Source: Linum tenue
Lineage: Eukaryota; Streptophyta; Magnoliopsida; Malpighiales; Linaceae
Assembly (NCBI GenBank): GCA_946122785.1
Contig: CAMGYJ010000011.1
Span: forward strand, 25,173,007 to 25,237,006
Length of the DNA: 64,000 nucleotides
Reading direction: 5' to 3'
How positions within the stretch are numbered: position 1 is the stretch's first letter; every line of letters starts with the position of its first letter. A program made the translations under genes and the position numbers. The notes under the pieces were generated by a model that worked only from the letters and a program-made list of their open reading frames with translations, searched no databases and had not been told where the DNA came from. This document shows positions 2,960 through 61,810 of the stretch, in pieces.

Positions 2960-3823
2960 TAACCCCTAAAGGGGTAGTGGTTTTTGACACCCTCCTCTTG
3001 ATTGGTCACTTTTCCATTTAAGCTTTTTACTTTATTTATTGTAATCTTGTAAATTGGGAAAGCCTTAATTGTGATAATAATTATGAATGGGGAAGGAGAA
3101 AAACGTTGGTAATTATGAATGGGGAAGGATCTGGGGAAAAACGAAATCACCCCCATTAATTACATAATTAATTTCTCTCACTGGTACATTAATTACACGT
3201 ACCACTCCACTGGTACACGTACCACTCCACTGGTACATGTACCAGTGGAGTGGTACGTGTACCAGTGGAGTGGTACGTGTAACCATATGTCCTGTTTAGG
3301 CTTAAAAAATTGTGAAGACTTTATGTTTATTCACATTCGAAGGATAATTTATTGCTTTTGGCACAGTTTTTGGCTACTAATGGAAAGTTCCTATTTTTTC
3401 CCTATTATTGTTTATCATTGTTATGAAAAATATCATTGCACTGGTATTGTTCTCACTCTAACCTACCTTGTGGATTGCTCGCACCAGTGGAGTGGTACGT
3501 GTACCATTGGAGTGGTACGTGTACCAGTGGAGTGGTACGTGTACCAGTGGAGTGGTACGTGTACCAGTGGAGTGGTACGTGTACCAGTGGAGTGGTACGT
3601 GTAATTAATGTACCAGTGAGAGAAATTAATTATGTAATTAATGGGGGTGATTTCGTTTTTCCCCAGATTCTTTCTCTTTTCCAATGTGGTGAGAGACCCC
3701 AAATTACAAGATTAAAAAAAATAAAAAATCAGTTTAATTAATACTTGCCAATGATTGGAAATAAAATTGGCCAATCATAAAGGGGGTGTCAAAAATCACT
3801 ACCCCTTTAGGGGTAGTCACGCT
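2960..3823. mobile_element. Foldback/MITE-like inverted-repeat element
   Basis: Both ends carry ACCCCTAAAGGGGTAGTG followed by TTTTTGACACC in inverted orientation (about 2962-2990 and 3787-3816). Inner arms are also inverted: a stretch around AACGAAATCACCCCC at 3140-3160 recurs as its reverse complement at 3640-3660. Most of the 0.86 kb can therefore fold into one long hairpin around a 200-bp loop (about 3290-3480). The flanks share GCTA but give no clean TSD, so the superfamily is not assigned. No coding capacity. Confidence 0.75.
3484..3603. repeat. 20-bp tandem repeat of a palindromic unit
   Basis: Six head-to-tail copies of a 20-bp unit containing GTACCAGTGGAGTGGTAC, nearly identical; one copy has ATT in place of AGT. 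The unit itself has inverted ends GTACCA/TGGTAC. The left arm of the same element (3198-3283) has the repeat in both orientations, meeting at about 3238. Confidence 0.9.
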
Positions 3824-4051
3824 AACTGATCCCTACAAAACCACTACAAAACACAATCTACCACCATTCATCTAACTATCATCTGAGGCAGAATAATTCC
3901 AAAATAAAAAAAAAATAAGAAGAACATACTAGTAATTCTACCATTTTCCTTCTTATTTTTTTCCTGACACTCTGACACGAATCATGAGGAGAGAAAATGT
4001 ACTTTTCCTAATCCCTATTTTTTTAATCGAATCCTACATCATTTGTTTTAA

Positions 4052-5140
4052 CTCAGAAATTCAAAAAAGTGCATAGAAAGAACGTATTAATCATGATTTA
4101 CACAATGATATCCATTTTGCTATGTTTTGAGGGGGAAAATTAACTTCCCAAAATATGTGTTGATTATAGTGTTATCACTATCATATCAATCATATCATAA
4201 TGATATGATGACTCATCTCTTTCATTTCAACTCAAAATTTAAATCAAAATATTTAAAAAGAACGTGTTCATTAAGATCTACACAGTGGTATGCATTTTGT
4301 TAAGTTTTGTCAATCATAATACCTCATACAAACATCATATTAGTGTCATTTCATGTTACCATAGTGATAATATCATTTTATGCAATGATATGATGTCATC
4401 AAATTATTTTGTCAAAGTTAAGACATCATACCAATATCATATCAACAGCATATCAATATTATATCACTATCATATCAACATCATACCATTGATATCAAAC
4501 TACTTTCAGGTAATAATGTGATATTAAAGTGCTAAGACTCATCTTCTTGAATTCAACTAAGAATTTTAAACATACTCTCTCCAAAGAATGCATTAATTAT
4601 AGGGTAATGTCTGGTTTTTTTTTTCAAATCTTTTTTAGATTCTTTTATATTATCAAAACCTTTTAAAATACTTTTAATTAGCCAAATCTTTTGTAATGCA
4701 TCAAAATATTAGTCATTATTATGTTAAAGTTAATAATTTTGTAACCCTTTTCCTAGTTGAAATACTAAAATTTTGGAATGTTAACTTTCATGTGTCTCTT
4801 CCAAGTCAGTATAATGTTGCCAAGTCAATATTACTAACAAAATTGTTAACTGAAAGTTAACATTTGTCTACTTCTTAGTATTTCGATAAGTTTGGCAAAG
4901 AAAAAAGAATCCAAAAAAGATTTGGATAAAAAATAGACATTACCCTTAATTATATGATACTATGATATGACACTTATATAAGACCTCAAAAATGGTATGA
5001 TGTCATCAAATTGTTTTGACAAATATAAGACCTCATAAGTCATACCAACATAATATTACTGTCATATTAACATCATATCAACATTATATCACTATCATAT
5101 CAACATCATACCATTGTGATATGACAGTGGTAAGATGTGT
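4052..5140. repeat. Diverged AT-rich tandem duplication
   Basis: Three related units start near 4052, 4230 and 4547. Each begins with an ACTCARAATT-like stretch and AAAGAACGT/AAAGAATGC, and continues into runs of CATATCAACATCATACC. The segments at about 4390-4500 and 4990-5130 are clearly homologous (both have GATGTCATCAAATT and ATCACTATCATATCAACATC). The third unit is split by the MITE at 4602-4945. Confidence 0.6.
4602..4945. mobile_element. Mutator-type MITE, 344 bp, 9-bp TSD
   Basis: Terminal inverted repeats begin GGGTAATGTCT and extend for over 40 bp with few mismatches. Direct duplications TTAATTATA flank it exactly (4593-4601 and 4946-4954). A 9-bp TSD and long terminal repeats are typical of Mutator-like elements. 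A smaller inverted repeat (GTTAACTTTCA / TGAAAGTTAAC) lies inside. No coding capacity. Confidence 0.88.
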
Positions 5141-6186
5141 TTAAAAATTTTGGTCCAAAAAATATCAAAATGGATGTCATCTTGTAGAGTACAAAAAATC
5201 TGATTTTCAAATGCAAATTTTTTTGAAATCCAATGTAAAAAGATTGAGTTATAGTCTATTGAATTTTCTTGGGGATTAGAAAGTGCTTTAACTACACCTC
5301 TAAATCTGCACCCTTCTTCCCCAAAATCTAGGCAGCAGGTAGATAATAGGGATAGCACTCTTTATTTCTCTCCCTACCACTCCTTAATATGGATCATTGA
5401 ATCTTCCTTTATTAAATTACATTATTTTAATTAGATTGTACCCTAAATCCAGCCCTCAAAAATATATAAAATGTCGCCTATCGTGGCTGCTCGTTCCCTG
5501 AATTTTTGTTTTCAAAGTGACCGTCCACTTTGATAGTTTTGTAACACCCTAACCCGATCGAGTACTACTATTATCGAAATGTCCTTGGTAAACCATCAAC
5601 CAAAAACAAGAACCAAAAAGAGTAGGATAATTAGCAGGAAACTTTATTTAAACATCTATAATAAAAAAAATTGAAATTCAAATAACAATTTCTTAAAACT
5701 TGCATAAGTTGTAGTCATAAACATCTTCAATAAATGCGCCACAAGTCTAGAGTCCTATTAAATACACGAGGTTGGAACTTTGGGAGAAAAATTAACGAAC
5801 TCCCGGTAGTAATTTAAGTATGTGAAAAAGAAGAAAAATGGTAGTATATGCGATTTGAATGTATACCATTATAGTTATTAGTAAACATTATTTCTATTAT
5901 ACTATACTTTATTTGCTGTGATTTTTTCATAAATGTCATCATAAACGTATAACTCTTATCCTCAATTTTTTCAAAGCCCAAACGTGAACCCACGAACTAT
6001 CCTTAATCCCTGTTGTATTATAATTTCTAACACAATTTTATTATCAAAAGTTTGTCATATTGCTGATTCTTTTCTTCTACATGATATTGAGAATTGTTAT
6101 TATTGTGTTCAAAATGAGAAGTTATTTTGTAGATTAAGTTAGTTGAGTTGATCGTGGAGAATAAATTGAATCTATCATATTCATGG
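5141..6186. other. Intergenic, with a possible LTR fragment near 5540
   Basis: AT-rich DNA without genes. At about 5541-5660 the sequence starts TGTAACACCCTAACCCG and is similar to the reverse complement of the right end of the 3.2-kb solo LTR at 18375-21613, so it may be a diverged fragment of a related LTR. Nothing else is recognised. Confidence 0.4.
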
Positions 6187-37846: not shown

Positions 37847-39187
37847 TGATAGACCGATAATTATACATGTTTTTACCCCTATTCTGAGGCCGTTTGCGAC
37901 GAGGAATCTCGTGGTTTAAGCCGATTTCACGCTAGGTTGTGTGTTTATGTCATATTTCAGGTCCCGGCGTTGGAATCGAGGCGGAGAAACGAGTTCTGGG
38001 TCGAAAGGAGCAAGGTTGGGACGAGTAGGGCTGAAGGAGCAAAATACCCGGTCAGGTGGCCAAATACCCGACCGGGTATTAACCAAGGTTGGGCGCCCGA
38101 GAAACAGAGAGGGGCCCGGGCACAGCAGTTAAATCCCCGGTCGGGGATTTTGGTGTTGGACCGGGGATTTCCCTCTTTAGTGAAACGGTGCGTTGCAGAG
38201 ATACCCGGTCAGAACCCAAAATACCCGACCGGGTATTCTGACCGGGTATCGCGACCAGGCAGAGGATTTAAGGGAGAAGAAGAACAACCTTGAGGGGCCC
38301 CGAGTTTTTGAGAGAGAAACCGATACCTAGAGAGAGAAAGCGTCGAACCAGAGTTCTCAAGCGCCATAGATCGATCTTCAACACCATTGGAGCCCGTCTT
38401 GAGCTTGGAGAAGTGCGATTAAACGTCCAGAAGCAGGAATCCAACTTCACAGTATGATTTCCGTGTCTGAATCTGCTTTTGCTTCTTTCTCTATGGAGTA
38501 GTTTCCCCATTCATCTGGGTATGGAGAACCCTAGATTTGTATGCTAGGTCTGATTGTATGAACCCAAGTACAGTGTTTGTGAATTGATTATATTCGATTG
38601 AGGTTTGATTGATTGAATGACTTGAATCCTGATCAAATTCCTGTTGTTTCTGCTTTAACCTGGAATGAGAATATCTGCCTAGGTTGATAGAGTACCCTTA
38701 ATCGAAGGTGGCGAATTGGTGACTTTAGTCGAGGAGCCAATTCGCTATTCTGTACCGAAGTCAATTCGGTAGTGGAGGTTTGGTTCATTAGGGCCTCAAT
38801 CTGTTTACTCCGGTGGAGGTTAGTCGCCCGCTAGAGACTCAGATTGAGAGGGTCTGGAGACCTTTAGTCGAGACTTCAGGCTAATTGAGAACCTTCCGCA
38901 GTATAACTTTCATGAAAACTGAACTTGGTAAACTGCAATCCGACTTAACTGCAGTCTAGGGGGAAACCATATCCGGGTGACCTCTCTTGACTTGACAACA
39001 AACCGTTTACTTGCTTTGTGTTTTGTTTGCTTGAGTTTCACTAAAAGTTCACCGCTAAATAACAAGAATTCACCGAGTAGTCATCACATCTAGGACCTGG
39101 GTTGACATTAAAACCCGACCCGCTATACTACGCTTTAGGAAGTGGTTATACTTGGCCATTTTCTAGGGTGACAGTAGAGTCGAGTCA
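37847..39187 (+). repeat. Element B 5' LTR
   Basis: TGATAGACCG...GAGTCGAGTCA. It carries an array of ATACCCGGTC / GACCGGGTAT and related CCCCGGTC motifs at 38048-38250. Short ORFs inside it recur identically in the 3' LTR and are not genes. Confidence 0.95.
38048..38250. repeat. CCCGGTC inverted-motif array in the B LTR
   Basis: About eight half-sites of (A)ATACCCGGTC or AATCCCCGGTC in both orientations, several paired head-to-head as AATACCCGACCGGGTATT, able to form short hairpins. The same array is in 44246-44448, 57645-57855 and 61381-61591. Confidence 0.8.
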
Positions 39188-39193
39188 AGTTTT

Positions 39194-39211
39194 TGGCGCC
39201 GTTGCCGGGGA
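39194..39211 (+). promoter_or_regulatory. Element B primer-binding site (tRNA-Asp)
   Basis: TGGCGCCGTTGCCGGGGA, a perfect 18-nt complement of the 3' end of plant tRNA-Asp including CCA, six bases after the LTR. Confidence 0.95.
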
Positions 39212-39334
39212 CGGCTAGGTTGTTGAAGAAAAGTGATTTCTGTTACTTTAGCATTCTCATTTTTGCATTGAGTTTTTGCTTTGTCCCAGTTGTGCCTTCA
39301 CGGGTTTGCTTGCTTGAGTGTGTGCAGGTAGTGC

Positions 39335-42160
39335 ATGACCCGTAGCCAGTCAGGAGGTTTACTGCCGTTGGATCCAGAGCTTGAACGCACTTGCCGCCAA
39401 CTTAGGAGACAGCAGCGAGCTAGACTGGTTACGGGAGAGCGCATAGACGGCCACTTGACCAGCGATTCTGAGGAAGAGTACGAGATGGAGGGCGAAGACA
39501 TCCCACAACCGGGGAATGCTCGACAGGCTCCCCCGGTGAATCAGCATCCACCACCACCGCCGGGTCCCACCTTGGAGTACTACTACACTCCACGGATTGC
39601 TGACATCCGCCCGGTCATCCTCTATCCACCCATCCCAGCAAATAACTTCGAGATCAAGCCAGGCTGGATTCAGCTCATCACATCCTCTATCCAGTTCCAT
39701 GGCTTGAAGGATGAGGAAGCCCGGGCACACCTTTCCCGTTTTCTGCAGCTGACAAACGGTTTCAAGCTGAATGGTGTTCCGGATGATGCAATCCGCCTTC
39801 ACCTCTTCCCCCATTCTCTGGCGGGGAATGCTAAGAGGTGGTTGGAGACCCAGCCCCCACTGTCCATCACTTCCTGGGACGATCTGGCGGATAAGTTCGT
39901 GCACAGATATTATCCGGCATCGAAGACTACTGAGATTCAGCGGGAGATCACTCACTTCCGCCAAGAGCCAGATGAGTCCCTCCGTGATGCATGGGAGCGG
40001 TACATGGGATACTTCTGGCAGTGTCCCCATCACGGCTTCAGCGATGCTTTCACAGTGGGGAACTTCTACAGTGCCATCACCCCAGACAGCCAGAGGGTGA
40101 TTGAGTCTCTATGCCCAGGAGGGGATATCCTTACTAAGACTCCACCCGAGCTGAACCAGATGATCAGTACTTTGGCTGCCCGCGATCATTCCTGGGGGCA
40201 GAGCAGCAGAGGCAGGCACTCCCGGGACCGTGGTGTGCATGCTATGGAGGCCAGATCCGGGTTAGAGCAGCAGGTGGCTGAGTTGGTGCAGACCCTGAAG
40301 CAGCCTAACAGTCTCCTTCCGGGCCGAGGTGTAGCTGCGCCTCCGGTAGCTCAGTGCCAGTGGTGTGAGAGTCCAAACCATCTGGTGGAGGACTGTCAGG
40401 CTATGCGGGAGTCCTCTACTCCCCAAGAGCAGGTGGCCTTCATCGCCAATGCTCGGCGCTTCGACCCATACAGCAATACATATAATGAGGGATGGCGCCA
40501 GCATCCCAACTTCGCCTGGAGCAACAACACCAACAAACCACCTGGTTTCCCAGCCCCAGCAGGTGGTTTTCAGCAGAGGCAGCCCTACCAGGATAGGCAA
40601 GGGCCACCACCACAGCAGCAGCCCTACCAGCCTAGGCAAGGGCAGCCATTCCAGCAGCCCCAGGGCCAGTTTGCTCAGCCTCCAGCAGCCGCAGCTCCCG
40701 ATAATCAGATGGCTGATCTGAAGAACATTTTGGCGACATTCATGACCACCAGCCAGGCGAATTTCGCAAGGGTGGACCAGAGCATAGCTTCTTTGGAGGC
40801 AGGGCAGAGGAACCAGGGTGCTATTTTGCAAGATCTACAGCACCAGGTCGGTGTCCTAGCGCGCCAGCTTACTGCTCGGGCCCCGGGGACTCTACCTGCC
40901 ACCACCATCCCCAATCCACGGGACCCGCACGAGACCGCACATGCCATTTTCACCCTGAGCGGCAGGCCTACATCAGCTGATCCTGCCCCGACCAGGCAGG
41001 AGGAACCATTACCTGCTCCAGCACTTCCAGCCGGTGATGCAGAAGTGCGGGTGGAGAAGGAAGCCCCTGCTCCTAAGCCACAACCAGTGGTGAAGGAGCA
41101 CGTACCCCAGCTTCCCTTCCCCACTCGCCTTCACAAGGACAAGCTGGAGACTGAGTTTGCCAATTTTATGGCAATGTTGAAGCAGCTCAACATCAGCATA
41201 CCATTTGTGGAGGCACTGTCGAAGATGCCCAAGTACGCTAAGTTCATGAAAGATCTCTGCACCAACAAGAAGAAACTTGGGGATCTCTCGACAGTGCTGC
41301 TGAGCGAGGAATGTTCTGCCATCCTGCAGAACAAGCTGCCCGAAAAGCGCAAGGATCCAGGGAGTTTTACTATCCCTCTTACTATTGGCAGCATGCATGT
41401 AGGAAAGTCCTTGGCGGACCTAGGAGCTAGCATTAATGTCATGCCATATAAATTGTTCAAAAAGCTAGACCTAGGTGAACTTAGCCCTACTAGGATGAGC
41501 ATTCAGCTAGCTGATCGTTCTGTGGTGCATCCTAGGGGTATCATAGAAGATTTGCTTGTTAATGTGGGTGCATTCACATATCCTGCTGATTTTGTTATTC
41601 TGGATATAAATGATGATGTGGATGTGCCTTTGATTCTGGGTAGACCATTTCTTGCCACCGCCAAGGCATTGATTGATGTGCATGATGGTAAACTGATTCT
41701 GCGTGCTGGGAATGAACAGGCTACTTTTTCTGTGACTGAGTTTGATCACTGTGCTATGATTGCTGTCACCCCTGTGCATGCTATTTATGACCAGATACAC
41801 GAGCCTGTCGTGTATCCTTCTGCACCTCTCATTTTGCAGGACCCTCCTATCATTCCTTCGCCGCCACTCCATCCAGCCTCGCCTCCGAACAAAAAATTCA
41901 AGGAGGAGTGGCGGCCGAAGCCGCAAGTGGCTAAGCCTGCACGAAAGAAGAGTGGAGACCACTATGAGCTGGTCCCACCCCCCGCACCACGACCACCCTG
42001 GCCATCCGAGTACTCACTCGCCTGCATCTTGCCGGATGGCCAGGTCGAGCTGACTTCTGCTGGTGGTTGCAGCCGTCGGGTGCACGGTCACCACCTGAAG
42101 CTGTACCTCAAGAGCGATGTGGATCCGCTCTTGGAGGCACCTGTTCCTGCACTTCCCTGA
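39335..42160 (+). CDS. Gag-protease polyprotein with fused Pol tail, 941 aa
   Basis: Single open frame, no stops or frameshifts. Residues 1-80: basic then acidic N-terminus. About 90-270: retrotransposon gag capsid domain (LAGNAKRWLETQPPLSITSW, DKFVHRYYP, LRDAWERY). CCHC zinc knuckle: Cys341, Cys344, His349, Cys354. 380-460: Gln/Pro-rich linker. 590-680: conserved linker (LPFPTRLHKDKLE, MPKYAKFM). 688-800: retropepsin-like protease with DLGA at 696-699 and LILGRPFLATAKALIDVHDG. 855-925: KKFKEEWRPKPQ to VHGHHLKLYL aligns with the end of the D Pol (KLKSKWSSP, NGHRLKLYL). So the protease has been joined directly to the Pol C-terminus, with RT, RNase H and integrase missing. It should form the particle and process itself but cannot copy or integrate DNA. 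The start is the first ATG after the PBS in good register. Confidence 0.93.
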   Translation: MTRSQSGGLLPLDPELERTCRQLRRQQRARLVTGERIDGHLTSDSEEEYEMEGEDIPQPGNARQAPPVNQHPPPPPGPTLEYYYTPRIADIRPVILYPPIPANNFEIKPGWIQLITSSIQFHGLKDEEARAHLSRFLQLTNGFKLNGVPDDAIRLHLFPHSLAGNAKRWLETQPPLSITSWDDLADKFVHRYYPASKTTEIQREITHFRQEPDESLRDAWERYMGYFWQCPHHGFSDAFTVGNFYSAITPDSQRVIESLCPGGDILTKTPPELNQMISTLAARDHSWGQSSRGRHSRDRGVHAMEARSGLEQQVAELVQTLKQPNSLLPGRGVAAPPVAQCQWCESPNHLVEDCQAMRESSTPQEQVAFIANARRFDPYSNTYNEGWRQHPNFAWSNNTNKPPGFPAPAGGFQQRQPYQDRQGPPPQQQPYQPRQGQPFQQPQGQFAQPPAAAAPDNQMADLKNILATFMTTSQANFARVDQSIASLEAGQRNQGAILQDLQHQVGVLARQLTARAPGTLPATTIPNPRDPHETAHAIFTLSGRPTSADPAPTRQEEPLPAPALPAGDAEVRVEKEAPAPKPQPVVKEHVPQLPFPTRLHKDKLETEFANFMAMLKQLNISIPFVEALSKMPKYAKFMKDLCTNKKKLGDLSTVLLSEECSAILQNKLPEKRKDPGSFTIPLTIGSMHVGKSLADLGASINVMPYKLFKKLDLGELSPTRMSIQLADRSVVHPRGIIEDLLVNVGAFTYPADFVILDINDDVDVPLILGRPFLATAKALIDVHDGKLILRAGNEQATFSVTEFDHCAMIAVTPVHAIYDQIHEPVVYPSAPLILQDPPIIPSPPLHPASPPNKKFKEEWRPKPQVAKPARKKSGDHYELVPPPAPRPPWPSEYSLACILPDGQVELTSAGGCSRRVHGHHLKLYLKSDVDPLLEAPVPALP

Positions 42161-42205
42161 GTATCCACCATGGGCGTCCAGCTAAAAGACGGTAAAGAAG
42201 CGCTT

Positions 42206-42223
42206 GTGGGGAGGCAACCCCAC
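42206..42223 (+). ncRNA. Post-pol hairpin, element B
   Basis: Stem GTGGGG/CCCCAC with loop AGGCAA, 45 nt after the ORF stop and preceded by AAGAAGCGCTT. Compared with A and E (GTTGGG/CCCAAC) and D (ATTGGG/CCCAAT) the stem changes in a paired way while the loop is constant. Confidence 0.7.
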
Positions 42224-44003
42224 CACGGTTTGACTTTCTTTCTTATGTTTCGAGTCGGATTGCGATTTGGTTTTGTTTTGGTTTGTTTCTTTTCATTCTG
42301 GATTATGTACTATTGGGCTGACCGTTGGACCTAACGTATGTGTTTGAGCTTTTTGGTCTCTTTTAGCTCTGCCTGTGTTTCCGACTGGTCCTCTCTCCAG
42401 TCCGTCCCATGCCGACTGGTCCATTTCCAGTCTTCTGCAGTCTGTGCACACCGGTAACATCGTTCCCCTTTCCTTCCCTCTTCTCCATTGAGGGCAATGT
42501 CGATCTTAAGTGTGGGGGGATGTTTATCTTGTGACTGCATTAGCTCTGTTTGTGTGCTTGGAGCCTAGTCCATTGTCCAAATCTTACGATTTGAGGGCTC
42601 CAAGTACTGCTGTTTGATCATATTGGCACTGTGTTTTGATGGGTGAATTGATTGGTTTTCGGATTAATGCATGCCAACTTGTTTGCGACTAGGACAACCT
42701 ATGATGAGGACTGAGATGTGCAGTAGAACGATGTAGGGGTTCAGTTTTTCAACTGTCTGCTTGCCAACTGTGACTTGATCTGACTTGATCTGATTACTTG
42801 TTCTTGACAGTCGTTTATGCATCTAGTTCAGGGTATCAAAATGTGAGATAGAGCATATAGGTAGCCATGTGAGATTTGAGCCTGCTCGTTTCTTTCTTGT
42901 GCGATAGATCCCTCTTCCATGATGTGTAGCATTCACGTTGTCACTAGCTAAAATGATGGGGGCATAGGATTAGCCCACGCCCGAAACTGACTGTCCTGAT
43001 GTGTCATATCCCCTAGTCAGCCCCTTTGAGCCGTGTGTTATCCTTTCTTTTGGTCTATAATGGAAAAAATCACCCTTGTTGCATCTTTTAGAAGGTTCCA
43101 CAGAGTGGTTTTATGTATTCTCTGCTGTTTCTGCTAAAGTCTATGTGAGTGTTGGAGGTAGTGCTTAAAAGTTGGGCAAGTGTTTGAAATTTATGCAGAA
43201 GTGGTGGCTCTCTTAAGAAATGAAAGAAAAATAAAGGAAAAAAATTGAAAGCAAAAGAGAGCCACTACTAAAAATCTGAATAATGCCCAGTAAGTAGTGT
43301 TTCTTAGCAGTCTGGCTTGGAAATGCTGTTGATTATGCCTCCTTCGCTTTTGTGCTCTTAAGATATTGAGTAATGCAGAATAGCAGAAAGAAAATGCAGG
43401 GTTGTTTGACTGTGATTGTGTGTTTGGAAAATGTGGAACCTTTTTGCTATGAATACTTCCACCACCTAAAAGGCCTTTTCCCCATGTCCAAGACCCTAGC
43501 CAGTCATTTGAACCTGTGTCTAAGACCTCCTGATTAGTTAGTGGTGACACCCCATATGTGAACTCTAGCATTTAGAGGCTGCCATCATGGTGAAGAGATG
43601 ATAGGGATTGAGAGAAATAGCATGCGCATCTTTCGCATCAAAATTGTCCTGACCCCACTGGTCGAGAGTGAGTGATTCATTTTCATTTTCTATATGCTCT
43701 TGTACCCCGGTGAGGACCTAGATTGCTCGGTCTCTATTCTGATATTTTGAGTTGGATGCATGAGTTGACTGTTTTGAGTAAGTGGTTGAATCAAGTCTAG
43801 GTTGGCTAGTGAACAGACGGGAGACTCTTCCTTTACTCGATTTGCTGCACTCGAATGTCCTTTGTGGTGGTTGTCCAGGTTGTTATTGAGGTTGTGCATG
43901 TATTGATGGTTGAAAACCAGGGTGATTCACGTGTTTTGTGCCTTTATGACTTGTCCCCAATGTTGGTTGATTGAATATGTAAGCTTACCTAGTGTCTGAC
44001 TTG
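42224..44003 (+). other. Element B 3' non-coding domain
   Basis: 1.8 kb without coding capacity, similar in reverse orientation to 9267-11150 and 16370-18199 and nearly identical to 58091-59889 of C. It begins with a short AGTGTGGGGGGATG purine tract near 42508-42521 that resembles the terminal PPT and could be a second plus-strand primer site. Confidence 0.75.
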
Positions 44004-44025
44004 GTTTGCTTGGGGACAAGCAAAC
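44004..44025 (+). ncRNA. Pre-PPT hairpin, element B
   Basis: Perfect stem GTTTGCTTG/CAAGCAAAC with a GGGA (GNRA-type) loop, four bases before the polypurine tract. Confidence 0.65.
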
Positions 44026-44029
44026 GGTT

Positions 44030-44044
44030 AAGTGTGGGGGAGTT
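44030..44044 (+). promoter_or_regulatory. Element B polypurine tract
   Basis: AAGTGTGGGGGAGTT directly before the TGATAG start of the 3' LTR. Confidence 0.92.
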
Positions 44045-45385
44045 TGATAGACCGATAATTATACATGTTTTTACCCCTATTCTGAGGCCGTTTGCGACGA
44101 GGAATCTCGTGGTTTAAGCCGATTTCACGCTAGGTTGTGTGTTTATGTCATATTTCAGGTCCCGGCGTTGGAATCGAGGCGGAGAAACGAGTTCTGGGTC
44201 GAAAGGAGCAAGGTTGGGACGAGTAGGGCTGAAGGAGCAAAATACCCGGTCAGGTGGCCAAATACCCGACCGGGTATTAACCAAGGTTGGGCGCCCGAGA
44301 AACAGAGAGGGGCCCGGGCACAGCAGTTAAATCCCCGGTCGGGGATTTTGGTGTTGGACCGGGGATTTCCCTCTTTAGTGAAACGGTGCGTTGCAGAGAT
44401 ACCCGGTCAGAACCCAAAATACCCGACCGGGTATTCTGACCGGGTATCGCGACCAGGCAGAGGATTTAAGGGAGAAGAAGAACAACCTTGAGGGGCCCCG
44501 AGTTTTTGAGAGAGAAACCGATACCTAGAGAGAGAAAGCGTCGAACCAGAGTTCTCAAGCGCCATAGATCGATCTTCAACACCATTGGAGCCCGTCTTGA
44601 GCTTGGAGAAGTGCGATTAAACGTCCAGAAGCAGGAATCCAACTTCACAGTATGATTTCCGTGTCTGAATCTGCTTTTGCTTCTTTCTCTATGGAGTAGT
44701 TTCCCCATTCATCTGGGTATGGAGAACCCTAGATTTGTATGCTAGGTCTGATTGTATGAACCCAAGTACAGTGTTTGTGAATTGATTATATTCGATTGAG
44801 GTTTGATTGATTGAATGACTTGAATCCTGATCAAATTCCTGTTGTTTCTGCTTTAACCTGGAATGAGAATATCTGCCTAGGTTGATAGAGTACCCTTAAT
44901 CGAAGGTGGCGAATTGGTGACTTTAGTCGAGGAGCCAATTCGCTATTCTGTACCGAAGTCAATTCGGTAGTGGAGGTTTGGTTCATTAGGGCCTCAATCT
45001 GTTTACTCCGGTGGAGGTTAGTCGCCCGCTAGAGACTCAGATTGAGAGGGTCTGGAGACCTTTAGTCGAGACTTCAGGCTAATTGAGAACCTTCCGCAGT
45101 ATAACTTTCATGAAAACTGAACTTGGTAAACTGCAATCCGACTTAACTGCAGTCTAGGGGGAAACCATATCCGGGTGACCTCTCTTGACTTGACAACAAA
45201 CCGTTTACTTGCTTTGTGTTTTGTTTGCTTGAGTTTCACTAAAAGTTCACCGCTAAATAACAAGAATTCACCGAGTAGTCATCACATCTAGGACCTGGGT
45301 TGACATTAAAACCCGACCCGCTATACTACGCTTTAGGAAGTGGTTATACTTGGCCATTTTCTAGGGTGACAGTAGAGTCGAGTCA
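44045..45385 (+). repeat. Element B 3' LTR
   Basis: 1341 bp, same length and apparently the same sequence as 37847-39187, followed by TSD GCATA. Confidence 0.95.
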
Positions 45386-56443: not shown

Positions 56444-56708
56444 AAGGATTTCAAGGCTAGAGATCGAATGCTTCTGTTCAACTCTCGCCTTCGACTCTTT
56501 CCTGGAAAACTCAAGTCCAAGTGGTCTAGTCCATACACAATCAGCACGGTCCATCCATACGGCACAGTGGAACTTTTTGGTGAGGACAATTCAACCTTCA
56601 AGGTAAACGGGCATCGACTAAAACTCTACCTTGCCTTGGAGCAGCCTTCCAACCTTAACGTTGTCCACCTCTCTGCCCCCAAATTAAGCTCCACATTGTC
56701 CCGCTATC
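56444..56708 (+). pseudogene. C-terminal Pol tail of element D
   Basis: Continues the integrase frame after the TGA: KDFKARDRMLLFNSRLRLFP, KLKSKWSSPYTIS, then TVELFGEDNSTFKVNGHRLK. It ends STLSRYL at the insertion of C. This is the part homologous to residues 855-925 of the B polyprotein and to the remnant in C. Confidence 0.85.
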
Positions 56709-58049
56709 TGACTCACTCCTACTGTCACCCTAGAAAATGGCCAAGTATAACCACTTCCTAAAGCGTAGTATAGCGGGTCGGGTTTTAATGTCAACCCGGG
56801 TCCTAGATGTGATGACTACTCGGTGAATTCTTGTTATTTAGCAGTGAACTTTTAGTGAAACTCAAGCAAACAAAACACAAAGCAAGTGAACGGTTTGTTG
56901 TCAAGTCAAGAGAGGTCACCCGGATATGGTTTCCCCCTAGACTGCAGTTAAGTCGGATTGCAATTTACCAAGTTCAATTTTCATGAAAGTTATACTGCGG
57001 AAGGTTCTCAATTAGCCTGAAGTCTCGACTAAAGGTCTCCAGACCCTCTCAATCTGAGTCTCTAGCGGGCGACTAACCTCCACCGGAGTAAACAGATTGA
57101 GGCCCTAATGAACCAAACCTCCACTACCGAATTGACTTCGGTACAGAATAGCGAATTGGCTCCTCGACTAAAGTCACCAATTCGCCACCTTCGATTAAGG
57201 GTACTCTATCAACCTAGGCAGATATTCTCATTCCAGGTCAAAGCAGAAACAACAGGAATTTGATCAGGATTCAAGTCATTCAATCATTCAAACCTCAATC
57301 GAATATAATCAATTCACAAACACTGTACTTGGGTTCATACAATCAGACCTAGCATACAAATCTAGGGTTCTCCATACCCAGATGAATGGGGAAACTACTC
57401 CATAGAGAAAGAAGCAAAAGCAGATTCAGACACGGAAATCATACTGTGAAGTTGGATTCCTGCTTCTGGACGTTTAATCGCACTTCTCCAAGCTCAAGAC
57501 GGGCTCCAATGGTGTTGAAGATCGATCTATGGCGCTTGGGAACTCTGGTTCGACGCTTTCTCTCTCTAGGTATCGGTTTCTCTCTCAAAAACTCGGAACC
57601 CTTCAATGTTGGCCTTCTTCTCTCTTAAATCCTCTGCCTGGTCGCGATACCCGGTCAAAATACCCGGTCGGGTATTTCGGGTTCTGACCGGGTATCTCTG
57701 CAACGCCCCGTTTCACTAAAGAGGGAAATACCCGGTCCAACACCAAAATCCCCGACCGGGGATTTAACTGCTGTGCCCGGGCCCCTCTCTGTTTCTCGGG
57801 CGCCCAACCTTGGTTAATACCCGGTCGGGTATTTGGCCACCTGACCGGGTATTTTGCTCCTTCAGCCCTATTCGTCCCAACCTTGCTCCTTTCGACCCAG
57901 AACTCGTTTCTCCGCCTCGATTCCAACGCCGGGACCTGAAATATGACATAAACACACAACCTAGCGTGAAATCGGCTTAAACCACGAGATTCCTCGTCGC
58001 AAACGGCCTCAGAATAGGGGTAAAAACATGTATAATTATCGATCTATCA
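56709..58049 (-). repeat. Element C 3' LTR
   Basis: 1341 bp, same family and length as the B LTRs, including the CCCGGTC motif array (57645-57855). Confidence 0.95.
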
Positions 58050-58065
58050 AACTCCCCCACACTTA
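58050..58065 (-). promoter_or_regulatory. Element C polypurine tract
   Basis: Minus-strand TTAAGTGTGGGGGAGTT directly before the 3' LTR. Confidence 0.9.
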
Positions 58066-58068
58066 ACC

Positions 58069-58090
58069 GTTTGCTTGTCCCCAAGCAAAC
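58069..58090 (-). ncRNA. Pre-PPT hairpin, element C
   Basis: Stem GTTTGCTTG/CAAGCAAAC, loop GGGA, identical to B. Confidence 0.65.
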
Positions 58091-59889
58091 CAAGTCAGAC
58101 ACTAGGTAAGCTTACATATTCCAATCAACCAACACTGGGGACAAGTCATAAGGGCACAAAACACGTGAATCGCACTGGTTTTCAAACATCAATACATGCA
58201 CAACCTCAATAACAACCTGGAAACCACCACAAAGGACATTCGAGTGCAGCAAATCGAGTAAAGGAAGAGTCTCCCGTCTGTTCACTAGCCAACCTAGACT
58301 TGATTCAACCACTTACTCAAAACAGTCGACTCATGCATCCAACTCAAAGCATCAGAATAGAGACCGAGCAATCTAGGTCCTCACCGGGGTACAAGAGCAT
58401 ATAGAAAATGGAAATGAATCACTCACTCTCGACCAGTGGGGTCAGGACAATTTTTGATGCGAAAGATGCGCATGCTATTTCTCTCAATCCCTATCATCTC
58501 TTCACCATGATGGCAGCCTCTAAATGCTAGAGTTCACATATGGGGTGGTCACCACTAACTAATCAGGAGGTCTTAGACACAGGTTCAAATGACTGGTTAG
58601 GGTCTTGGACATGGGGAAAAGGCCTTTTAGGTGGTGGAAGTATTCATAGCAAAAAGGTTCCACATTTTCCAAACACACAATCACAGTCAACCAACCCGGT
58701 ATTTTCTTTCTGCTATTCTGCATTCCTCAATATCTTAAGAGCACAAGAGCGAAGGAGGCATAATCATCAGCATTTCCAAGCCAGACTGCTAAGAAACACT
58801 GCTTACTGGGCATTACTCAGATTTTTGGTAGTGGCTCTCTTTTGCTTTCAAATTTTTGCTTTGTTTTTCTTTCATTTTTTCTTTTCATTTCTTAAGAGAG
58901 CCACCACTTCTGCATAAATTTCAAACACCTGCCCAACTTTTTAAGCACTACCTCCAACACTCACATAGACTTTAGCAGAAACAGCAGAGAATATGTAAAA
59001 ACCACTCTGTGGAACCTTCTAAAAGATGCAACAAGGGTGATTTTTTTTCATTATAAACCAAAAGAAAGGATAACACACGGCTCAAAGGGGCTGACTAGGG
59101 GATATGACACATCAGGACAGTCAGTTTTTGGGCGTGGGCTAATCCTATGCCCCCATCATCTTAGCTAGTGACAACGTGAATGCTACACATCATGGAAGAG
59201 GGATCTATCACACAAGAAAGAAACGAGCAGGCTCAAATCTCACATGGCTACCTATATGCTCTATCTCACATTCTGATACCCTGAACTAGATGCATAAACG
59301 ACTGTCAAGAGCAAGTAATCAGATCAAGTCAGATCAAGTCACAGTTGGCAAGCAAACAGTTGAAAAACTGAACCCCTACATCGTTCTACTGCACATCTCA
59401 GTCCTCATCATAGGTTGTCCTAGTCGCAAACAAGTTGTCATGCATTAATCCGAAAACCAATCAATTCATCCATCAAAACACAGTGCCAATATGATCAAAC
59501 AGCAGTACTCGGAGCCCTCAAATCGTAAGATTTGGACAGTGGACTAGGCTCCAAGCACACAAACAGAGCTAATGCAGTCAAAAGATAAACATCCCCCCCA
59601 CACTTAAGATCGACATTGCCCTCAATGGAGAAGAGGGAAGGAAAGGGGAACGATGTTACCGGTATGCACGGACTGCAGAAGACTGGAAATGGACCAGTCG
59701 GCATGGGACGGACTGGAGAGAGGACCAGTCGGGAACACAGGCAGAGCTAAAAGAGACCAAAAAGCTCAAACACATACGTTAGGTCCAACGGTCAGCCCAA
59801 TAGTGCATCGTCCAAAACAAAAGGAAACAAACCAAAACCGAACCAAATCGCAATCCGACTCGAAACAAAACAAATAAATGAAAACCATG
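58091..59889 (-). other. Element C 3' non-coding domain
   Basis: Nearly identical in reverse orientation to 42224-44003 of B. No coding. It is kept whole although gag and protease are gone, suggesting cis function. Confidence 0.8.
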
Positions 59890-59907
59890 GTGGGGTTGCC
59901 TCCCCAC
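59890..59907 (-). ncRNA. Post-pol hairpin, element C
   Basis: RNA-sense stem GTGGGG/CCCCAC, loop AGGCAA, as in B. Confidence 0.65.
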
Positions 59908-59952
59908 AAGCGCTTCTTTACCGTCTTTTAGCTGGACGCCCATGGTGGATAC

Positions 59953-60391
59953 TCAGGGAGGTGCAGGAACAGGTGCCTCCAAGAGCGGATCCACATCGCT
60001 CTTGAGGTACAGCTTCAGGTGGTGACCGTGCACCCGACGGTTGCAACCACCAGCAGAAGTCAGCTCGACCTGGCCATCCGGCAAGATGCAGGCGAGTGAG
60101 TACTCGGATGGCCAGGGTGGTCGTGGTGCGGGGGGTGGGACCAGCTCATAGTGGTCTCCACTCTTCTTTCGTGCAGGCTTAGCCACTTGCGGCTTCGGTC
60201 GCCACTCCTCCTTGAGCTTTTTGTTCGGAGGCGAGACTGGATGGAGTGGCGACGAAGGAATGATAGGCGGGTCCTGCAAAATGAGAGGTGCAGAAGGATG
60301 CACGACAGGCTCGTGTATCTGATCAAAAATAGCATGCACAGGCGATACAGAAATCATAGCACAATGATCAGACTCAGTCACAGGAAAAACG
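59953..60391 (-). pseudogene. 3' remnant of the Gag-protease-Pol-tail ORF in element C
   Basis: Encodes the last 140 residues of the B-type polyprotein, from TESDHCAMISVSPVHAIFDQ to GHHLKLYLKSDVDPLLEAPV. The upstream part is gone: the ORF runs directly into tRNA-derived DNA at 60392. No start codon with a gag context, so not a functional gene. Confidence 0.9.
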
Positions 60392-60438
60392 GCCTGTCAC
60401 GCGGGTGACCCGGGTTCGGTCCCCCGGCAACGGCGCCA
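60392..60438 (+). other. tRNA-Asp-derived sequence (residues 30-76) overlapping the PBS of element C
   Basis: On the plus strand, 47 bp read as the 3' part of tRNA-Asp(GUC): anticodon loop CTGTCAC (60394-60400), anticodon stem GCGGG, variable loop TGAC, T stem CCGGG and loop TTCGGTC, acceptor strand and CCA (60436-60438). A normal PBS holds only the last 18 residues. Differences from the plant tRNA-Asp that I know: residue 58 is G instead of A (60419), plus one extra C in 60421-60425. Not a tRNA gene: the 5' half is missing and CCA is encoded. Confidence 0.9.
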
Positions 60439-60444
60439 AAAACT

Positions 60445-61785
60445 TGACTCACTCCTACTGTCACCCTAGAAAATGGCCAAGTATAACCACTTCCTAAAGC
60501 GTAGTATAGCGGTTCGGGTTTTAATGTCAACCCGGGTCCTAGATATGATGACTACTCGGTGAATTCTTGTTATTTAGCGGTGAACTTTTAGTGAAACTCA
60601 AGCAAACAAAACACAAAGCAAGTAAACGGTTTGTTGTCAAGTCAAGAGAGGTCACCCGGATATGGTTTCCCCCTAGACTGCAGTTAAGTCGGATTGCAGT
60701 TTACCAAGTTCAGTTTTCATGAAAGTTATACTGCGGAAGGTTCTCAATTAGCCTGAAGTCTCGACTAAAGGTCTCCAGACCCTCTCAATCTGAGTCTCTA
60801 GCGGGCGACTAACCTCCACCGGAGTAAACAGATTGAGGCCCTAATGAACCAAACCTCCACTACCGAATTGACTTCGGTACAGAATAGCGAATTGGCTCCT
60901 CGACTAAAGTCTCCAATTCGCCACCTTCGATTAAGGGTACTCTATCAACCTAGGCAGATATTCTCATTCCAGGTCAAAGCAGAAACAACAGGAATTTGAT
61001 CAGGATTCAAGTCATTCAATCATTCAAACCTCAATCGAATATAATCAATTCACAAACACTGTACTTGGGTTCATACAATCAGACCTAGCATACAAATCTA
61101 GGGTTCTCCATACCCAGATGAATGGGGAAACTACTCCATAGAGAAAGAAGCAAAAGCAGATTCAGACACGGAAATCATACTGTGAAGTTGGATTCCTGCT
61201 TCTGGACGTTTAATCGCACTTCTCCAAGCTCAAGACGGGCTCCAATGGTGTTGAAGATCGATCTATGGCGCTTGGGAACTCTGGTTCGACGCTTTCTCTC
61301 TCTAGGTATCGGTTTCTCTCTCAAAAACTCGGAACCCTTCAATGTTGGCCTTCTTCTCTCTTAAATCCTCTGCCTGGTCGCGATACCCGGTCAAAATACC
61401 CGGTCGGGTATTTCGGGTTCTGACCGGGTATCTCTGCAACGCCCCGTTTCACTAAAGAGGGAAATACCCGGTCCAACACCAAAATCCCCGACCGGGGATT
61501 TAACTGCTGTGCCCGGGCCCCTCTCTGTTTCTCGGGCGCCCAACCTTGGTTAATACCCGGTCGGGTATTTGGCCACCTGACCGGGTATTTTGCTCCTTCA
61601 GCCCTATTCGTCCCAACCTTGCTCCTTTCGACCCAGAACTCGTTTCTCCGCCTCGATTCCAACGCCGGGACCTGAAATATGACATAAACACACAACCTAG
61701 CGTGAAATCGGCTTAAACCACGAGATTCCTCGTCGCAAACGGCCTCAGAATAGGGGTAAAAACATGTATAATTATCGATCTATCA
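60445..61785 (-). repeat. Element C 5' LTR
   Basis: 1341 bp; differs from 56709-58049 at about seven sites. Followed by TSD CTATC. Confidence 0.95.
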
Positions 61786-61810
61786 CTATCACAACGGTAA
61801 AGAAGCGCTC

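Follow-up and report, generated by a model that had tools for sequence, protein, structure and literature searches.

A modified base on a host tRNA is believed to make plus-strand synthesis end where it should. In HIV-1 the plus strand copies the primer tRNA past m1A58, up to A37 in vitro, and primer over-extension sequence has been described beside lentiviral primer binding sites (PBSs; PMC13191261, PMC1785368). According to PMC1785368, integrated HIV-1 proviruses obtained with an A58U primer carry no extra tRNA. Primer-tRNA sequence is reported not to be inherited in Ty1 and Ty3 (PMC5371799). A plant review presumes a Ty1-like model; for animal elements it reports that the second strand can be transferred at microhomologies, by way of alternative end joining (PMC12786077). 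PMC12220202 mentions an MMLV circle with tRNA-Gly between the LTRs (Colicelli and Goff 1986), hairpin-induced tRNA-mediated recombination in HIV-1 (Konstantinova 2006), and HIV clones with tRNA-Gly and a provirus deletion. No report of inherited primer-tRNA read-through in plant retrotransposons was found in titles and opening lines of abstracts, mostly from outside subscription journals.

Copies of tRNA-Asp extending beyond the PBS reside behind LTR ends in Linum tenue. As in HIV-1, the plus strand appears to go beyond residue 58 of the primer tRNA; HIV-1 over-extension is mostly a biochemical product, whereas the Linum copies are integrated, inherited, and reach residue 1. Ty1 and Ty3 are also LTR retrotransposons in which the plus strand first extends into the tRNA, but in them the tRNA sequence is reported not to be inherited, and in Linum it is. 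The MMLV circle is similar in that primer tRNA was copied into viral DNA, and differs in being a cloned circle, with a spurious primer and the tRNA between the LTRs, and no internal join described in PMC12220202. The case of Konstantinova also combines a tRNA-Asp piece in retroviral DNA with a deletion, but concerns nef and 63 nt, with no link to the PBS described in the same source; the HIV clones with tRNA-Gly share the association of reverse-transcribed tRNA with deletions.

The first copy was noticed in element C, found along with its sibling B in a window of 64,000 nt (the whole stretch of DNA analyzed). Features of the two elements, in window coordinates, are as follows.

37847-45385, plus strand, sibling element B
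37847..39187, plus strand, 5' LTR of B
39194..39211, plus strand, ordinary 18-nt tRNA-Asp PBS of B
39212..41715, plus strand, B stretch (gag and most of protease, 2504 nt) absent from C
39335..42160, plus strand, gag-protease ORF of B, 941 aa
41716..41721, plus strand, ACAGGC in B, point where homology to C resumes
44045..45385, plus strand, 3' LTR of B, 100% identical to the 5' LTR of B
56704..56708, left copy (CTATC) of the target site duplication (TSD) of C
56709-61785, minus strand, element C
56709..58049, minus strand, 3' LTR of C
59953..60396, minus strand, what C retains of the gag-protease frame, 147 codons ended by a stop
60392..60397, plus strand, GCCTGT/ACAGGC microhomology at the junction of C
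60392..60419, plus strand, tRNA-Asp residues 30-58, past the normal 18-nt PBS, tRNA sense on the plus strand
60419, plus strand, residue 58, G in place of A (putative m1A58 site)
60420..60438, plus strand, tRNA-Asp residues 59-76, PBS of C, 19 nt
60445..61785, minus strand, 5' LTR of C
61786..61790, right copy (CTATC) of the TSD of C, perfect match to the left copy

C has the paired LTRs and the TSD of an LTR retrotransposon, and a PBS complementary to the 3' end of the tRNA including CCA. Its LTRs are 99.48% identical (7 differences over 1341 sites), and the AGTTTT spacer between LTR and PBS is the same in B and C. The family has gag and protease: the ORF of B matches PF03732 (8.8e-18) and PF13650 (3.7e-4; 21.6 bits, below the cut-off of 24.3). 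No second ORF of 150 aa was found on the strand of B before the 3' LTR, and no reverse transcriptase in B or C, neither of which encodes a reverse transcriptase and integrase of its own; both domains are present in some relatives found with the ORF of B. The Ty3/gypsy superfamily (Athila-like) is a candidate placement, which reverse transcriptase and domain order would decide. With gag-protease only in B, and a remnant of that ORF in C, the two elements look non-autonomous, and reverse transcriptase and integrase would have to come from another element. Linum trigynum supplies the proteins closest to the ORF of B (87% identity to the best cluster, which has 72 members); a search with the remnant of C returned 14 proteins, all from Linum trigynum, uninformative on junctions.

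The original prediction that C holds residues 30-76 of tRNA-Asp is correct: the 47 bases at 60392-60438 (plus strand) are in register with the PBS, and abut the LTR via the AGTTTT spacer. The plus strand of the element consequently carries antisense tRNA, including the complement of CCA, as expected if the tRNA served as template in plus-strand synthesis. The predicted G at residue 58 and the extra C are found at 60419 and in a run of five C at 60421-60425, the latter making the PBS 19 nt long. ACAGGC occurs in B where C resumes, at 41716-41721, the 2504 preceding bases are absent from C, and the TSD is clean, as had been claimed. Besides the stop that ends the remnant frame, an in-frame stop lies just upstream of it, inside the tRNA part. 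Allowing as many as 7 mismatches, the window has a single match to the 28-nt tRNA stretch past the PBS; two further PBS-like sites, with 2 and 3 mismatches, have no tRNA extension, and Rfam gave 0 matches on 60300-60500 (201 bases). Scaled by the LTR clock, the expectation for 47 nt is 0.12 changes, and the probability of two or more is 0.007. Overlaps of at least 6 bases were found in 226 of the 275674 joins enumerated between the tRNA and the internal DNA of B.

C is probably, to judge from its sequence, the product of primer read-through followed by a mis-aimed strand transfer. Plus-strand synthesis would have continued on the tRNA-Asp primer beyond residue 58, as far as residue 30 at least; the resulting over-long plus strand would then have annealed, via ACAGGC, to the protease region of the minus strand, rather than at the PBS. 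A minus strand ending early at GCCTGT, and annealing to the over-long plus strand, would fit equally. Over-long copying joined by ACAGGC would also explain the loss of 2504 bases. The proposal that one event produced both insert and deletion is upheld in its read-through part; that the event was single, and which strand primed on which, we infer. Read-through and deletion likely belong to the same cycle, although this is not proven.

The 692-Mb genome was searched for other copies; 40 of 98 candidates were scored, and all counts are lower bounds. The scored matches include C, 28 others joined to an LTR end, and 11 of the tRNA-gene type, so that the proposed search for LTR-PBS junctions with more than 18 nt of tRNA was productive. 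The 29 LTR-linked copies, C included, correspond to at least 22 distinct junctions: L014, L026, L027, L035, and L045 are nearly identical over kilobases to another copy, and L030 and L031 have the same junctions as L020 and L022, respectively; junctions and LTR-end groups were sorted by eye. All 29 carry in-register antisense tRNA past residue 58, and 28 retain the complement of CCA (TAG in L022). Given four copies (L019, L020, L025, L028), ARAGORN called in each a complete tRNA-Asp of 75 nt, CCA included, immediately after the LTR spacer. Gene-type matches were fetched in 9 of 11 cases, the other two being typed by query range only; all nine are tRNA-Asp(GTC) by ARAGORN, with A58 and four C, which bears out the tRNA sequence of the original prediction. 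None has the G58 or the extra C that had been named as evidence against read-through. A pattern search gave 16 exact extended PBSs, one of which is the gene match L034. LTR-PBS junctions with A, C, or T as next base number 4340 in the genome, versus the 29 read-through copies seen. An extended initiator-Met pattern gave 0 matches in the same genome, although a wrong letter in the query would also give 0; pattern scans of viral contigs gave 0 matches each.

The junction of C is unique in the genome at up to one mismatch, which answers whether it is shared. The LTR of C is 98.4% identical to that of B, and at most 91.7% to those of the other extended copies (24 of the 28 were compared, the remaining four being near-duplicates). 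Since the junction is unique and the LTR closest to B, C does not descend from the extended copies seen, and a common lineage with them was rejected.

Alignments to the tRNA end at residues 44, 37, 32, 30 (C), 27, 19, 15, 14, 13, 12, 9 (twice), 8, 5, 3 (twice), and 1 (six times); the end at 19, in L012, is probably an overrun, as the final tRNA letters match the internal sequence also. The outcomes vary. L020/L030 are near-simple insertions, in which the whole tRNA is rejoined within a few bases of the PBS end, and L011 (residues 27-76) appears to rejoin at the PBS edge. C and L015 have internal deletions; L015 is rejoined in a G-rich tract that lies some 0.9 kb ahead of its 3' LTR. An inverted LTR follows the tRNA in L018 and L024, possibly made by a self-primed or wrongly transferred plus strand. 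In the former (3056-5827, plus strand) LTR-PBS-tRNA and the inverted LTR form a 2.77-kb palindrome (97.9%); in the latter (3720-5185, minus-strand reading) the corresponding figure is 85%. In L017 a second partial copy of the 5' third of the tRNA occurs at about 4390-4412 (minus strand), soon after residue 3. Two LTRs and matching 5-bp TSDs were found in C, L012, L015, and L016, the TSDs of the last three being read by eye; L010 has an LTR pair, and no TSD was found. The remaining loci examined showed no LTR-length direct repeat within the fetched stretch.

Overlaps at the junctions were measured in two ways. A strict exact-match test was given 12 of the 22 junctions, L012 being without reference, and showed no excess (11 bases at 11 junctions, P 0.15); several references are diverged, and C scored -8 through a wrong seed, though its 6-nt overlap is plain. 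Nine overlaps picked post hoc, leaving out L011, L012, and L016 as ambiguous, total 24 bases (P 5e-6; 2.7e-4 without C), figures which are indicative only, the value of 2 for L015 coming from one reference, while the closest gives -4. Among the ten junctions outside the strict test, L013, L017, L021, and L028 align with their best reference only from 14 to 34 bases beyond the end of the tRNA, joins that may carry filler, and L044 from 1-2 bases beyond it; at the junctions of L010, L023, L029, L033, and L039 no reference alignment was found. By analogy with animal elements, alternative end joining could be the way in which mis-aimed joins are made.

At residue 58, 13 of the 22 junctions depart from the tRNA, compared to 26 of 1362 bases elsewhere (Fisher p 3e-16). 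The changes are A>G in eight (C, L010, L011, L012, L023, L024, L028, L044) and A>T in five (L017, L018, L021, L029, L032); 17 of the 26 changes elsewhere are C>T or G>A. The 26 include two changes in L012 probably belonging to internal sequence, and for L020/L030 and L022/L031 the representative with fewer changes was used, the other choice adding about 7 elsewhere. When junctions are collapsed by hand-sorted LTR-end group and base, the figures are 4/7 vs 26/1362 (p 6e-6); copies share ancestry, which makes these p-values optimistic. Together with the nine fetched genes, the 28 further LTR-linked copies, and the unique junction of C, the recurrence of this hotspot strongly supports the primer read-through proposed for C. 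Residue 58 is presumably m1A in Linum tRNA-Asp, and the changes, as read from the sequences, would be misincorporations. Misreading of m1A by reverse transcriptase is established, and at m1A followed by U dATP is taken very efficiently by SuperScript III, according to PMC4787781; in contrast to that preference, dC-type changes (8) exceed dA-type changes (5) in Linum. Small-RNA reads of tRNA-Asp 3' ends in Eragrostis have A (179), G (109), and U (338) at residue 58 in Table 4 of PMC6852985, rows that could equally be tRNA variants, and a table for Fraxinus lists a read with U (PMC9011107). The five-C form of tRNA-Asp was not found in the literature searched.

Residue 58 changes could alternatively reflect the native base behind the PBS, acquired when synthesis moved briefly onto the minus strand and then returned, instead of a misread m1A58. 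Among the matches listed (the first 100 per pattern, one pattern without G) the native base is mostly C, then A, and C or A at residue 58 in a single copy therefore need not be a misincorporation. In B it is C, the same letter as the G58 change of C, and for this reason the G58 of C alone is weak evidence. Only the T class and the transversion excess resist this confound. T, the correct copy of A58, occurs in 9 of 22 read-through copies and in 5 of 200 ordinary ones listed (p 2e-7), and A, G, and T at residue 58 are all found within each of the two larger LTR-end groups. In ordinary copies with the flank of B, 61 variants lie opposite residue 58 (T 39, A 15, G 7), and a control position two bases further along has 32 (A 31, T 1); transversions number 22 against 1, the control being one single G, rather than another C. 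The native base is an unlikely source of the changes. Among the first 100 junctions listed with the LTR end of B, the residue 58 base is changed in 5 of 70 B-flank copies, 4 more having gained an A, against 2 changes over the four bases that follow. The variant pattern suggests that, in normal cycles too, a single base opposite residue 58 is often misread in the plus strand. At the places listed, ordinary copies vary in base and length exactly at the 3' edge of the PBS: the same flank follows directly, or after one or two additional bases, which may be a trace of short over-extension.

C itself might have arisen in two steps: an ancestor that still had gag would first have acquired a longer tRNA insert, and gag and protease would have been lost afterwards through ACAGGC. 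L020/L030, with the whole tRNA, rejoin near the PBS as such an ancestor would, L011 appears to do so, and a 6-nt microhomology suits end joining as well. The LTRs of L020/L030 are, however, only 82.5-84% identical to that of C over 898 bases, compared with 98.4% for the insert-free B, and these two copies have A58 and four C; L011 has G58, but its LTR matches that of C over 162 bases only, at 75%, and a junction like that of C occurs nowhere else in the genome at up to one mismatch. A full-tRNA ancestor with gag is possible outside the copies seen; the two-step origin is unlikely. An origin by DNA recombination or by gene conversion involving a tRNA-Asp gene, which shares 15 nt of homology with the PBS, is very improbable: it would need a second join every time, and the CCA complement in 28 of 29 copies, the 6 of 22 junctions ending at residue 1, and A58 in all nine fetched gene matches led to its rejection. 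The same observations, with residue 58 changes in none of the nine fetched genes, mark the mature tRNA, rather than a gene, as template. Copying of a free tRNA by copy choice during minus-strand synthesis, as in the tRNA capture reported for HIV (PMC12220202), has scarcely any likelihood, and was rejected; like the HITME-type inserts, it would be expected, by reasoning, to leave sense tRNA on the plus strand of the element, out of register with and away from the PBS, and the opposite is seen. The best reading is that reverse transcriptase repeatedly copied through the primer tRNA, and that the over-long plus strand was used in transfer and inherited.

Primer tRNA seems, with fair probability, to be inherited in this lineage, contrary to the Ty1/Ty3 rule. 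Read-through of m1A58 would then be a continuing process: it would mark the base behind the PBS in ordinary copies, insert as much as a whole tRNA, and, when transfer is mis-aimed, generate deleted, inverted, and other derivative elements. Many failures of the stop appear to have been inherited in this genome, each keeping in DNA its endpoint and its residue 58 base. Sequence data can test whether tRNA-copied plus strands are transferred in plant retrotransposons, in contrast to the reported Ty1/Ty3 rule, how frequently the stop at m1A58 is overrun, and whether deleted non-autonomous elements result.

L020 and L030 lie about 8.7 kb apart, with the same whole-tRNA junction and 8% divergence, and possibly represent a lineage that moved with the tRNA insert. 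Scanning of genome contigs for an LTR end plus PBS identified one contig, L001, without extension; filed as Streptomyces clavifer, it carries at 972-992 a plant-type LTR end and a tRNA-Asp PBS, probably a contamination.
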